The notes beneath the pieces are model-generated. The model saw only the letters and a list, made by a program, of their open reading frames with translations. It searched no databases and was not told where the DNA came from. The position numbers and the translations under genes are program-made. A stretch of 34,900 bases of DNA, taken from positions 1-34,900 of IMG/VR virus record IMGVR_UViG_3300042568_000974; one strand, 5' to 3'. The stretch comes from a virus. Positions 189 to 34,836 of this stretch are shown in pieces; position 1 is the first letter of the stretch, and every line of letters begins with the position of its first letter.

Positions 189-246
189 TGGCGGAAGGGG
201 TGGGATTCGAACCCACGGTTGGTTTAACCCAACGCTCGATTTCGAG
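189..246 (-). other. attP core: 3' part of a tRNA-Ser(CGA) gene
   Basis: On the minus strand this reads as an anticodon loop CTCGAAA (anticodon CGA), anticodon 3' stem TCGAG, a long variable arm with stem GTTGG/CCAAC, a T arm GTGGG-TTCGAAT-CCCAC, acceptor strand CCCTTCC, discriminator G and CCA. The long variable arm and G discriminator fit serine. The sequence before the loop does not pair with the anticodon stem and no matching 5' acceptor strand follows, so this is not a whole tRNA. A tRNA 3' half next to an integrase gene is the usual form of a phage attP. The inferred bacterial target is a tRNA-Ser(CGA) gene with crossover in or near the anticodon loop. The rest of 1-394 shows no convincing gene. 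Confidence 0.85.
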
Positions 247-394: not shown

Positions 395-1135
395 GTGGCG
401 ACGATCACCCGTAAATGGAAAAAGTGGGCGGCCGCGACTTGCTCCCACGGCTCCGACATTGACCCGAAGGCCCGCGAAGCGTTCCTGACTTTCCTCGACC
501 GCTACAACCCACACCAACGCATCCACCTCGGCGATGCCATTGACCTCGCCTGCCTGCGCGCTGGCGCTCGGCGTGACCCCGATGACCCCGACCGCGCCGA
601 GTCCCTCATGGACGATCTGCTCGCCGGGCTTTCGTTCCTGCACGAGATGCGGCCCACCATGTATTTCCACGGCAACCACGAGGCCCGCGCCGTTGCCCTG
701 ACCCATAGCGCCAATCAGGTCGTGGCCTATGCGGCGGGCGCGGTCATGGCGAAGATTCACGACAACCTCGCCAAATACAAAACCGAGATCATCCCCTATC
801 GCGGCATGGCCCGCGACTCGGTGCGGTATCTGGGCGGCACGGCCTTTCTGCATGGAGCCCTCTTCAACGTCAGCGCGGCCCGCGACACGGCAGAAACCAT
901 CGGCGCGCATTGTGTCTTCGGCCACACACACCGCGTGGCAATGGAGCCGGCGCGAGTCCATGCGGATGCCATTGGCTACAACATCGGTTGCCTGGCTCGC
1001 CTCGATATGGAGTATGCCGCAGGCCGGCGGCAAACCTTGGCATGGCGGCATGGCTTCGCCTACGGCGAATACTGCGACAACGCCTGCACGGTCAACCTCG
1101 TCACTCTTTCCCCCCATTACCGCCTACCCCTATGA
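395..1135 (+). CDS. Calcineurin-like metallophosphoesterase
   Basis: A 246-residue protein with most of the motifs of the two-metal phosphoesterase fold: GDAID at 46-50, GNHE at 93-96, HG at 153-154 and GHTH at 176-179. These residues bind the metal pair in the family and support hydrolysis of phosphomono- or phosphodiesters; the substrate cannot be told. The first motif, normally D-x-H, reads C-S-H at 16-18, so one metal ligand appears replaced. The GTG start is chosen because an in-frame stop lies at 374 and a TTGACA motif sits 16 bases upstream. It is the first of four + strand genes joined by 4-base ATGA or GTGA overlaps, opposite in direction to the lysis genes. Phage homologues of this fold are often annotated as DNA or RNA repair phosphoesterases; here the role is open. 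Confidence 0.85.
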   Translation: MATITRKWKKWAAATCSHGSDIDPKAREAFLTFLDRYNPHQRIHLGDAIDLACLRAGARRDPDDPDRAESLMDDLLAGLSFLHEMRPTMYFHGNHEARAVALTHSANQVVAYAAGAVMAKIHDNLAKYKTEIIPYRGMARDSVRYLGGTAFLHGALFNVSAARDTAETIGAHCVFGHTHRVAMEPARVHADAIGYNIGCLARLDMEYAAGRRQTLAWRHGFAYGEYCDNACTVNLVTLSPHYRLPL

Positions 1136-1416
1136 AGTCGAAGTCTTCGGCCACAAAGGGGGGCGGCAATTTGCCTCCCTCCTTCGATCCCGACCTCGGC
1201 GCGTGGTGCTCGGCCCTCGCCTCGCCCGCCGTCCAAGACGCAGTGCCGCCCGGATGGTTCACCACCAAGCAGCTCGCCACAAAGCTCAACAAGCCCCTCC
1301 CGACAATGGGCCGATTGCTCGCCGAGGCCGTAGCTGCTGACCGCTGTGAGGTTCAACGCTTTCGCATCACGACGGGATCGGTCACTCGCCCGGTGCCGCA
1401 CTACTGCCTCAAATGA
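1132..1416 (+). CDS. Small winged-helix-like DNA-binding protein
   Basis: A 94-residue protein whose ATG overlaps the stop of the phosphoesterase gene (ATGA), which suggests translational coupling. A longer frame extends upstream to 910 but lies inside the phosphoesterase gene and is not used. Residues about 40-80 (from GWFTTKQLATKL onward) read as a helix-turn-helix followed by a basic strand pair, as in small winged-helix proteins. The first 30 residues are polar and glycine-rich. I do not recognise the family. It could bind DNA as a regulator of the cassette, but no operator is obvious. Confidence 0.6.
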   Translation: MKSKSSATKGGGNLPPSFDPDLGAWCSALASPAVQDAVPPGWFTTKQLATKLNKPLPTMGRLLAEAVAADRCEVQRFRITTGSVTRPVPHYCLK

Positions 1417-1754
1417 AAAAGCCGCGCAAACGCCCATCTGTGCGCGGCAAGCGCGTTCCTACGATGCGCTTCAAGTTGGATGGCTCATGGTGGAAGGTCA
1501 AAATCATGCGCCCGCCGAGCCGTGAATTGTGCGAGGGCATGACGCACTTCGATGACCGCATCATTTATTTGCACCCGGAGGCGCTAAAAAAGAACGGCCT
1601 TGGCATCATCGTGCATGAGACGGCCCATGCCGCATTTCCCGTGGTGGACGAGGCACACGTTCTCGACCAAGAGCGCATTGCCAGCGTGATCGCTCGGTGG
1701 GCAAGCCGCTACACGGACAAGACAATCACCATCGGGCAGCATAAGGCTTCGTGA
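1413..1754 (+). CDS. Putative zincin-like metallopeptidase (HExxH)
   Basis: A 113-residue basic protein overlapping the previous gene by ATGA. The zinc-binding helix HETAH is at 68-72, inside the hydrophobic stretch GIIVHETAHAAF, and acidic residues at 79-80 and 87 could supply the third ligand. This resembles compact SprT-like or ImmA-like zincins, some of which act with a helix-turn-helix partner such as the gene just upstream. That pairing is an inference from position. An inactive structural use of the fold is possible. The N-terminal 20 residues are rich in Lys and Arg and may contact nucleic acid. Confidence 0.6.
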   Translation: MKKPRKRPSVRGKRVPTMRFKLDGSWWKVKIMRPPSRELCEGMTHFDDRIIYLHPEALKKNGLGIIVHETAHAAFPVVDEAHVLDQERIASVIARWASRYTDKTITIGQHKAS

Positions 1755-32654: not shown

Positions 32655-32858
32655 TTATTTTCTGTTGCTTGAGGAAGCGCGTTTGCTTTGCCACCACGCT
32701 TCGAAACTTGGTTTGAGGATTTCGTACCCGCCGCGCTTGCCGCGTGGCATACACGCCGAAAACTCGCCGCGATGGCAGAATCGGCGGATCATGTAGACCG
32801 AGTAGCCCGTCATGGCTGCGGCCTGCTCCGGGCGAATGATGAAGTCGGTTGTGCTCAT
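32655..32858 (-). CDS. AlpA/Xis-like helix-turn-helix protein
   Basis: 67 residues with the small winged-helix order of MerR/AlpA-type excisionase proteins: RPEQAAAMTGYSVYMIRRFCHRG, then a strand FSACMPRGKRGGYE and an aromatic SFEAWWQS. This fold is used by phage excisionases and small regulators. AAGGA lies 7 bases upstream and the start overlaps the ribbon-helix-helix stop (ATGA). Candidate directionality factor for the integrase. Confidence 0.75.
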   Translation of the reverse strand: MSTTDFIIRPEQAAAMTGYSVYMIRRFCHRGEFSACMPRGKRGGYEILKPSFEAWWQSKRASSSNRK

Positions 32859-33028
32859 TTTTTGTCCTTCTTGCTGCGAGCCGTCTGACGGCTTGGGTCA
32901 AAAAAAAGAGCCTCACAAATCGCAACGACTTGCTTGCTAAAATCGCGGTGCTCGTCTGCGGCCAATGACGCAATCTCCTTCGCAAGCTGCGAGGGAAACG
33001 AGATGGTTTTGCGGGTCACTCCTTGCAT
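32855..33028 (-). CDS. Ribbon-helix-helix protein
   Basis: 57 residues from the ATG at 33028; the longer frame is rejected. The strand RKTISFPSQLAKEI and the two following helices are the Arc/CopG ribbon-helix-helix fold, which binds palindromes as dimers. The C-terminal tail is basic. Two palindromes lie in its leader (33032-33064) and a second identical 15-bp site is inside its own 3' end. Autoregulation is likely, an inference. Confidence 0.7.
   Translation of the reverse strand: MQGVTRKTISFPSQLAKEIASLAADEHRDFSKQVVAICEALFFDPSRQTARSKKDKK
32879..32893. repeat. 15-bp palindrome, copy inside the ribbon-helix-helix gene
   Basis: AGCCGTCTGACGGCT has 7-base arms around one base. It is the reverse complement of the copy at 33050-33064, so both are the same site. 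It lies in the coding end of the gene at 32855. Confidence 0.55.
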
Positions 33029-33031
33029 CTG

Positions 33032-33049
33032 GGTGGTGTTTCTACCACC
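33032..33049. promoter_or_regulatory. Palindrome before the ribbon-helix-helix gene
   Basis: GGTGGT and ACCACC are separated by 6 bases, directly beside the 15-bp palindrome at 33050 and just before the start at 33028. It is a plausible second operator. Confidence 0.45.
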
Positions 33050-33064
33050 AGCCGTCAGACGGCT
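33050..33064. promoter_or_regulatory. 15-bp palindromic operator candidate
   Basis: AGCCGTCAGACGGCT has perfect 7-base arms. It sits 22 bases before the ATG of the ribbon-helix-helix gene at 33028 and repeats at 32879. A run of A and T follows at 33069-33090. Confidence 0.55.
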
Positions 33065-33080
33065 CAAGGAAAAAATAAAA

Positions 33081-33299
33081 TTATTTTTTGGTCGAGAATT
33101 TGGACGTGGTGTTCGTCCGCAAAAACTCTCGCGCCGTGGGGAACCGCCGCGCCATCTCTTCAAGCACGGCGCGTGTGAAGTCGCCCTTGTATTTCTCGTC
33201 CGCAATAGCCTGGATCTCGTCAGCCAACGCATCGGGAAACGGAATGGTCTTCCGTATCCGGTTGGCTGCTCTGTCTCGCGGTTTCTGCTGCTTCTTCAT
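33081..33299 (-). CDS. Ribbon-helix-helix protein
   Basis: 72 residues from the ATG at 33299. RIRKTIPFPDALADEIQAIA is the strand and first helix of a ribbon-helix-helix domain, and the second helix is KGDFTRAVLEEMARR. N- and C-terminal tails are basic. It is one of four related small regulators here. A likely role is control of lysogeny or of early genes. Confidence 0.7.
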   Translation of the reverse strand: MKKQQKPRDRAANRIRKTIPFPDALADEIQAIADEKYKGDFTRAVLEEMARRFPTAREFLRTNTTSKFSTKK

Positions 33300-33423
33300 G
33301 CCTGCAACTGTCACACACTATATGACGGCTTGCCATGGGGACAAGTGCCCATAGCACTTCCTCGGGCGTAATTCCTTCCTTTTCAGCAACGTAGAATATG
33401 CACGCAATAGCCAGATTTTCCAT
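33220..33423 (-). CDS. Possible small protein overlapping a ribbon-helix-helix gene
   Basis: A 67-residue frame whose first 38 residues (MENLAIACIFYVAEKEGITP, then EEVLWALVPMASRHIV) look gene-like, while the remainder lies in another frame over the neighbour. It has no good ribosome-binding site. It may be a short real gene or a chance frame. The gap from 33300 to 33461 otherwise holds the palindrome at 33445-33465. Confidence 0.35.
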   Translation of the reverse strand: MENLAIACIFYVAEKEGITPEEVLWALVPMASRHIVCDSCRHEEAAETARQSSQPDTEDHSVSRCVG

Positions 33424-33444
33424 GTGGGGAGTCTTTCATAGGGG

Positions 33445-33465
33445 ATAGGACATTGGCTGTCCTAT
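33445..33465. promoter_or_regulatory. Palindrome ATAGGACA-ttggc-TGTCCTAT
   Basis: Perfect 8-base arms around five bases, overlapping the stop of the gene at 33462. It could be an operator for the regulator genes or a hairpin; the T run lies on the plus-strand side. Confidence 0.5.
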
Positions 33466-33635
33466 GGTTTTGGTTTTTTCCGACTTTTTCGGCAGTCAGT
33501 GCCGTGCGTGTGAGGAAGTGTGACACCTTGAGACTTTTTTAATAGCGCGTCCAGATATTTACTGCGCGAAATGTTGCCGCGAGCGGCGTCGAGTTCAGCC
33601 ACGGCCTCCGGTGAGATTTCAACGGTCTTTTTCAT
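33462..33635 (-). CDS. Ribbon-helix-helix protein
   Basis: 57 residues from the ATG at 33635. MKKTVEISPEAVAELDAARG is the ribbon and first helix; SRSKYLDALLKKS is the second. The Cys/His-containing tail HTHGTDCRKS is unusual for the family and could bind a metal. The start lies within the 3' end of the gene upstream. Confidence 0.65.
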   Translation of the reverse strand: MKKTVEISPEAVAELDAARGNISRSKYLDALLKKSQGVTLPHTHGTDCRKSRKKPKP

Positions 33636-33792
33636 GACTTTTGTTTTTTCTTTCGGCGGCAATAAGCGTGCGGACGAAGGTGCTGAAATCGTTGATGCCC
33701 CGGCGCCTTGCTTCCTGAATTGCCCAGCGGTAGAGCTCCTCGTCCACCGTGATGGTGGTGCGCTTTAACGAGGGGTCGCGCTGGTTAGGCAT
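33619..33792 (-). CDS. Ribbon-helix-helix protein
   Basis: 57 residues from the ATG at 33792. SLKRTTITVDEELYRWAIQ is the ribbon and first helix; NDFSTFVRTLIAAER is the second. It follows the integrase gene by 33 bases and overlaps the next regulator gene by 17 bases. It is the closest regulator to the integrase in the direction of transcription, so it may be made with it. Confidence 0.7.
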   Translation of the reverse strand: MPNQRDPSLKRTTITVDEELYRWAIQEARRRGINDFSTFVRTLIAAERKNKSHEKDR

Positions 33793-33825: not shown

Positions 33826-34836
33826 TCACAATGCCCACCACGCCTTCCAATCTGCCAGCGCCGCCGGCACGGCATAAACTTTTTGCACCATCTTGGCGTC
33901 GGTGTGGCCCATCTGGTAAGCCGTCAGGCCGGCGTTTTTTGCCCGGCCAAGATGGTAGGTGGCGAAGCTATGCCGAAGGCAATTATCAGGCCACTCCGTC
34001 AGGACGGGCGCACAGGCGCGGCGGCGGTGGGCGTGTAGGGTTTCCGAGGCCACAGGGATGATCTTGCCCTTTTGCTTCGCAAGCCACGCCCTGCGCCGTC
34101 GTAGCGGCTCGGTGAAGTCCACGATACGCTGGTCGAATCCGCCGCTGTCTTTCATTGCCCCCGGAGGGACGTGGATCTGGCCCGTTTTAGTATTTACGTT
34201 TGACCAATCCATTCGATGCACCTCATCCGTGCGAAGCCCGGCAAAGCCGCCCAAGAGCAGCAAGGCGCGCACATGGTCGGGAAGATCCAAGGCCAGCAAG
34301 GCTTTCATCTGAGCGGGTAAAAGGATGTTTCTCCCTGGCTTGGTCTTGGGCGCTGGCACCGCCGTGATCGGATCGTGCGGAATGAGTCGGTTGGCCGAAA
34401 GGTATTTGAAGAACATTCGGCAATAGGTGAAATACATGGCCTGAGTGTTGCCATTGGCTGACCGTTCTTTAACCCACCGCCGAAGATCGACGGCCTCGAT
34501 GTCGCCCACCGCCCCGCGAAAGGCTTTGCCGAAAGCGCGCTCAAAGATGCCGAGTTTCTGCTCGTGACTCTTGCTCTCCGGGGTTTGCTCGTTCACGAAC
34601 ATCCGCAGCGCCGACGCCACCGTCAGCCCGTCTGCGTTGTTGAGCGACTGCATCCCCTTCTCGGTCACACGGGCCGTCAGCTTGGCCCCCTCGGCCCAAG
34701 CTAATTCCTCGGCAGGGAAAAACTTTCTCAGTCTCTTGCCGTGCGCGTGAAAGTCGCACACCCAACAGTTTTCGCCCCGTGATGCGTCCTTCCGCACCTT
34801 GAAGCGAACCGGGTTGATGTTGCGAGTCAGTGCCAT
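33826..34836 (-). CDS. Tyrosine-type site-specific integrase
   Basis: A 336-residue phage integrase. The N-terminal 60 residues are an arm-binding region (CWVCDFHAHGKRLRKFF), then a helical core-binding domain and the catalytic domain: Arg 202 in FAGLRTDEV, Lys 229, Arg 288 and His 289 in NCLRHSFATYHL, His 311 in MGHTDAK and nucleophile Tyr 321 in QKVYAV. The first His of the HxxR motif is Asn here. It would insert the phage at a tRNA-Ser gene through attP, which adjoins the start of this gene when the genome is circular. GGGGAGG lies 13 bases upstream. The gene is transcribed first in the regulator array. Confidence 0.92.
   Translation of the reverse strand: MALTRNINPVRFKVRKDASRGENCWVCDFHAHGKRLRKFFPAEELAWAEGAKLTARVTEKGMQSLNNADGLTVASALRMFVNEQTPESKSHEQKLGIFERAFGKAFRGAVGDIEAVDLRRWVKERSANGNTQAMYFTYCRMFFKYLSANRLIPHDPITAVPAPKTKPGRNILLPAQMKALLALDLPDHVRALLLLGGFAGLRTDEVHRMDWSNVNTKTGQIHVPPGAMKDSGGFDQRIVDFTEPLRRRRAWLAKQKGKIIPVASETLHAHRRRACAPVLTEWPDNCLRHSFATYHLGRAKNAGLTAYQMGHTDAKMVQKVYAVPAALADWKAWWAL

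Follow-up and report, generated by a model that had tools for sequence, protein, structure and literature searches.

Ribbon-helix-helix (RHH) proteins contact DNA by a two-stranded sheet placed in the major groove, and their specificity is determined by a few residues of the strand (PMC3325190). In the immI region of phage P22, two RHH repressors, Mnt and Arc, act with operator sites in a secondary immunity that operates through antirepressor control (PMC8022706, PMC2629481). In Pf4 (Pf4r/XisF4) and P2 (C/Cox), the repressor adjoins a small excisionase that takes part in choosing between lysis and lysogeny (PMC7379572). An open literature search, of incomplete coverage, found no phage whose primary switch consists of two RHH proteins, and lysogeny control in phages of Verrucomicrobiota appears to be undescribed in the literature searched. 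The mnt and arc genes are divergently arranged. Autoregulation of arc was reportedly described by Youderian in 1982, and the 1989 work of Knight and Sauer on Arc and Mnt is said to bear on the specificity of the RHH strand.

A temperate virus and its attachment site

The window, that is, the whole stretch of 34,900 nt analysed here, is the entire IMG/VR record IMGVR_UViG_3300042568_000974. Its two ends share a 139-bp overlap in which 138 positions are identical, indicating a circular or terminally redundant genome of ~34.8 kb. The terminase, portal, protease, capsid, tape measure, primase/helicase, exonuclease and RusA-like genes are all carried on the minus strand. A DNA search against deposited phages returned no match. 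The exact attP 57-mer was contained in nine Verrucomicrobiota MAGs, including Chthoniobacter, Spartobacteria and Chthoniobacterales records, and integrases related to that of the window (~46-47% identity) adjoined complete tRNA-Ser(CGA) genes in Chthoniobacterales genomes. On these grounds, the host is most likely a member of Chthoniobacterales. A contig scan of host genomes with the window integrase found no relative, and the attP-core pattern did locate matches. In two relatives (L017 and L018), the attP core upstream of int has another variable arm of tRNA-Ser, CGGAGAGCAATCTCCC, suggesting that their hosts belong to another lineage.

A six-frame HTH_3 search of the circular genome revealed no CI-type gene, the lone match being the small terminase at a sub-threshold score. 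The original remark that no CI-type repressor is seen elsewhere thus held within the limits of this search, although the opposite-strand operon at 395-1754 encodes a winged-helix-like protein and an HExxH protein. A recognisable CI/Cro pair, which would have spoken against the array as the switch, was not found by this search.

Small genes between int and AlpA

The coordinates, sizes and shared direction of the four small genes predicted between int and the AlpA-like gene were confirmed (Table 1). Their neighbours were also as predicted, with the integrase before them matching Phage_integrase and the excisionase-like protein after them matching HTH_17, both above the Pfam cut-offs. All four are conserved, and a fifth small gene sits among them. 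For the genes of the region, dN/dS among relatives was 0.05-0.49 where dN exceeded zero, and for the part of the fifth gene that does not overlap RHH3 it was 0.10-0.46. This purifying selection indicates that the genes are not chance ORFs. The fifth gene is conserved and restricted to the relatives with the tandem arrangement (type D, below). The AlpA-like gene was retained by all relatives having the region, and its product is probably an excisionase and/or an early regulator. An AlpA-like gene (60-63% identity) was located directly before int in L123 (826-1026) and L003 (3416-3616); in L123 it occurs in addition to the usual AlpA after RHH4.

Table 1 Features of the window around the integrase and AlpA-like genes
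Feature	Position	Strand	Remarks
attP core	189-245	-	Equals the 3' part of tRNA-Ser(CGA); in the circularised genome, lies upstream of int
Opposite-strand operon	395-1754	+	Beside attP
Metallophosphoesterase	395-1135	+	Opposite-strand operon
Winged-helix-like protein, 94 aa	1132-1416	+	Opposite-strand operon
HExxH protein	1413-1754	+	Opposite-strand operon; HExxH motif present
AlpA-like protein	32655-32858	-	Probable excisionase and/or early regulator
RHH4, 57 aa	32855-33028	-	Strand RKTISFP; stop overlaps AlpA start (ATGA)
Second palindrome copy	32879-32893		Inside RHH4 3' end, 21 bp before AlpA start
Palindrome AGCCGTCAGACGGCT	33050-33064		22 bp before RHH4 start
Possible promoter TTGAGC-N17-TAGAAA	33067-33039		Spacer holds the 33050-33064 palindrome
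RHH3, 72 aa	33081-33299	-	Strand RKTIPFP; RHH4 paralogue
Fifth small gene, 67 aa	33220-33423	-	Between RHH2 and RHH3; overlaps RHH3 start
Operator-like site before RHH3, CCGTCA...TGACAG / AGTGTGTGACAGT	33307-33328	-	Overlaps the promoter-like match below
Promoter-like match	33344-33317		-10 region covered by the operator-like site
Hairpin ATAGGACA-N5-TGTCCTAT	33445-33465	+	Terminator-like; position after RHH2 kept in most relatives
RHH2, 57 aa	33462-33635	-	RHH pattern; AlphaFold coil-helix-helix at low confidence
RHH1, 57 aa	33619-33792	-	CopG/NikR-like strand RTTITV; conserved in relatives; optional module with RHH2
Tyrosine integrase (int)	33826-34836	-	PHROG 1, E=2.8e-32

The claim that the small proteins are ribbon-helix-helix regulators was upheld at the level of pattern, with a strand-helix-helix succession in 4/4 of them, but profile and structure searches gave sub-threshold results only. 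RHH1 matched RHH_1, CcdA, NikR and MazE below threshold and RHH2 had a single weak match to VapB, while no credible RHH match was returned for RHH3 or RHH4 in the profile searches. Profile-profile comparison did not demonstrate the RHH fold. The partner protein of one relative matched a FitA-like RHH family at E=0.00097, under Pfam's cut-off. In structure prediction, which had been proposed as a check, the AlphaFold models of RHH4 and RHH2 as monomers began with an unstructured or extended segment followed by two helices, the form expected of an isolated RHH subunit, but at low confidence (pLDDT ~70) and with no significant PDB match for either model in Foldseek. RHH2-4 may be assigned to the RHH proteins on pattern and paralogy; for the four taken together, the assignment is good by pattern and weak by statistics.

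RHH3 and RHH4 are paralogues (45% identity over 31 residues). Furthermore, RHH partners within a lineage were more alike than RHH proteins from other lineages. The observed mean was reached in 5/40,320 permutations for the whole-protein alignment, 8/40,320 for the predicted strand and 24/40,320 for its outward residues, in a test with hand-aligned strands and lineages that are not fully independent. Type A partners differ in step by subgroup, with KSAGISLP in both or RAAGISLP/KAAGISLP. The partners in L137 and in type B are weakly alike over their length.

Variable cassettes and operator-like sites

Relatives were gathered from IMG/VR by integrase, terminase, RHH3 and AlpA searches, and the stretch from int/attP to AlpA was found to vary among them. 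Type D, comprising the window, L007, L010, L012, L014, L017, L112/L122 and L123, carries RHH1, RHH2, the small gene, RHH3, RHH4 and AlpA in one direction. A divergent paralogous RHH pair followed by AlpA defines type A (L004, L015, L016, L020, L069 and L115); other divergent pairs, again followed by AlpA, define type B (L009, L011, L013, L124, L134 and L133, the last showing the plus partner only) and type C (L018). Setting aside the tandem layouts, 11 relatives have a different RHH gene in front of AlpA, opposed by a divergent RHH partner. In prophages of host genomes, an AlpA-like gene is preceded by either a divergent pair (L136 and L140) or a tandem pair (L137 in genome G094; L142 and L146 in genome G211). 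The two contig ends L142 and L146 have overlapping partial RHH3-like frames, which were read as one gene; RHH3 has a relative in G211. In nearly every relative, the final RHH gene runs up to or into the AlpA start.

RHH1 and RHH2 accompany types D and C and part of type A only and are missing in some relatives. They are gained or lost together and are not closely paralogous to RHH3 and RHH4, and the notion of a single array with four equal members was rejected. RHH1-RHH2 is a separate optional module, with RHH3-RHH4 and AlpA as the core. In six relatives (L007, L009, L010, L011, L012 and L112), the int+attP block has the opposite orientation with respect to the RHH and AlpA genes when compared with the window, which puts int co-directional with the opposite-strand metallophosphoesterase operon. 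That operon is mosaic in some relatives, with one gene highly diverged and the next near-identical.

In type D, the 15-bp palindrome AGCCGTCWGACGGCT occurs in exactly two copies, before RHH4 and before AlpA; the window has no further exact copy, and the palindrome was matched in none of 100 shuffles, even allowing one mismatch. Within the RHH4 3' end, third positions of the palindrome codons varied at 0/5 sites compared with 18-26/52 elsewhere in diverged pairs (six pairwise comparisons). In L123, the codon at the centre of the second site is CTG instead of CAG, replacing Q by L, and the surrounding residues are changed as well; the central change leaves the arms intact and the symmetry kept. 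The site before RHH3 is perfect, AGTGTCTGACACT, in L007, L010, L012 and L017 and reads CCGTCA-N9-TGACGG in L014 and L123. It may be a weaker relative of the AGCCGTCWGACGGCT palindrome and is a candidate operator. Promoter matches were no more frequent than in shuffles, and terminator matches were likewise not above shuffles.

Two further candidates were set aside. The TAGGACA-N5-TGTCCTA hairpin was rejected as an operator of RHH1 and RHH2, being present also in relatives without these genes and resembling a plus-strand terminator, and was assigned to no protein. The near copy of the palindrome, AGCCGTTAGACGGCT, at 2803-2817 encodes the conserved EKPLDGYKK of a small lysis-region protein; it was found in another cassette type too and was judged to be coding only.

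The distant Chthoniobacterales prophages in G094 and G211 have the tandem layout of the window with other palindromes. The 2.6-Mb genome G094 has GGGTGTCWGACACC at two sites and no more, and the same holds for ACTGTAAGACAGT in the 1.9-Mb genome G211. In each case, one copy precedes the RHH unit and the other lies within the final RHH gene ahead of AlpA, matching the window. Such duplicated operator-like sites, changing jointly between lineages, have the look of binding sites of a co-evolving protein. In types A and C and in L140, 10-bp tandem repeats, unrelated in sequence, end 1-4 bp before the start codon of the plus-strand RHH gene (p=0.002-0.006 against dinucleotide shuffles). Repeats of 10 bp were not significant in type B and L136; L124, of type B, showed a 14-bp lag (p=0.03).

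A candidate RHH switch and its alternatives

RHH3-RHH4-AlpA is proposed to be a compact CI/Cro-like switch built from two paralogous RHH proteins and carried in exchangeable cassettes, in tandem here, with a probability of roughly 0.6. Gene order, coding status, paralogy, pairwise matching, the co-changing duplicated operator-like sites and the tRNA-Ser attachment site are established; DNA binding, promoters, the choice of the CI-like partner and lysogeny control are inferred. RHH3 and RHH4 are both predicted to read AGCCGTCWGACGGCT, with one copy at the RHH4 promoter, the other just before AlpA, and the weaker related site before RHH3. RHH3, expressed from its own promoter, would most likely be the maintenance repressor that shuts off the RHH4-AlpA-early operon. 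RHH4, as the opening gene of this operon, would be the Cro-like partner that tunes or counters RHH3, and AlpA, as the excisionase, would promote excision and possibly early expression. In the divergent types, the plus partner would open the AlpA operon and the minus partner would be repressor-like, because its transcription is directed away from the lytic genes. The pair in the window is tandem rather than divergent, and the assignment of its repressor partner is hence a guess. In related phages, this position is occupied by RHH pairs that are non-homologous and operator-matched, which is what would be expected of exchangeable immunity cassettes. The original suggestion that the array itself may be the lysogeny switch receives partial support, in modified form, for RHH3 and RHH4, which with AlpA and the twin palindromes look switch-like, but not for RHH1 and RHH2, a separate module that some relatives lack.

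The RHH pair might instead merely time AlpA, and with it excision, by autoregulation, while another repressor keeps lysogeny. The 94-aa winged-helix-like protein would be the most likely such repressor, and the HExxH protein would serve as inducer protease for it, following an ImmR/ImmA-like logic. The operon encoding both lends this reading some plausibility: it adjoins attP, has an orientation shared by no other gene, is present in nearly all of the relatives with sequence extending that far, is co-directional with int where int is inverted, and includes the HExxH motif. However, its proteins matched neither known repressors nor Peptidase_M78. The 94-aa protein is variable (37-81% identity), yet the operon accompanies every RHH type and does not change with the operators. 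This speaks against the operon as the determinant of type, and we regard this reading, although the main alternative, as unlikely.

Still less probable is a reading in which the RHH proteins play no part in phage development and act as orphan antitoxins or as copy regulators of the plasmid type. The weak CcdA, VapB and MazE matches of RHH1 and RHH2 would fit such a role, but no toxin-like partner lies beside any RHH gene, where the neighbours are RHH genes, AlpA, int and one small unknown, and PADLOC returned no match. The contact of the last RHH gene with AlpA in nearly every relative, and the repetition of the operator-like site at AlpA, also speak against it. The palindromes, for their part, might be accessory sites for Int/AlpA recombination or leader RNA hairpins, with the RHH proteins serving as nucleoprotein accessory factors. 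Palindrome transcripts do have hairpin potential, and int and AlpA are close by. Nevertheless, attP and the TTGGCA repeats are on the far side of int, the palindromes vary between lineages whereas AlpA is conserved, coding sequence contains one of the copies, and both lie ~20 bp before start codons, which leaves this account very improbable.

Beyond the window, the CI/Cro-like reading can be extended, only tentatively and at slightly less than even odds, to a temperate phage family whose main immunity switch consists of two RHH proteins replacing CI and Cro. Matched repressor-operator cassettes would be swapped among its members in divergent and tandem layouts, the latter with an operator in the last codons of the Cro-like gene. 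If true, CI/Cro logic would have arisen independently in a DNA-binding fold that is among the smallest known. Several operator-matched pairs at one position in close relatives also provide a natural set on DNA reading by the short RHH strand and on immunity-type divergence.

Comparison with known switches

With P22 immI, the locus shares two small proteins, here predicted to be RHH repressors, accompanied by operator-like sites, and the divergent-pair lineages resemble mnt/arc. However, immI lies in a late operon beside a normal CI-type switch, whereas the pair here lies at int/AlpA, CI was not found, and the set seems to operate by itself. In addition, immI controls the antirepressor ant, whereas the candidate target here is AlpA-like and the window pair is tandem. 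No Ant-like gene was detected among the proteins searched, and an AlpA-like gene follows the pair; as the antirepressor feature is absent, the region was not classed as a member of immI. With Pf4 and P2, the likeness is the predicted role of AlpA, which would be like that of XisF4 and Cox (PMC7379572). In contrast, Pf4r resembles the P2 repressor C and is not an RHH protein, and XisF4 is itself the counter-repressor, whereas here an RHH pair precedes AlpA. The likeness to lambda CI/Cro is one of logic, with two proteins predicted to act on one operator set, a position at the start of the early operon, and matched cassettes exchanged between relatives. Unlike CI and Cro, the proteins here would be of the RHH rather than the HTH type and are very small, they are encoded in tandem in the window, and the second operator-like copy lies in coding sequence just before AlpA.
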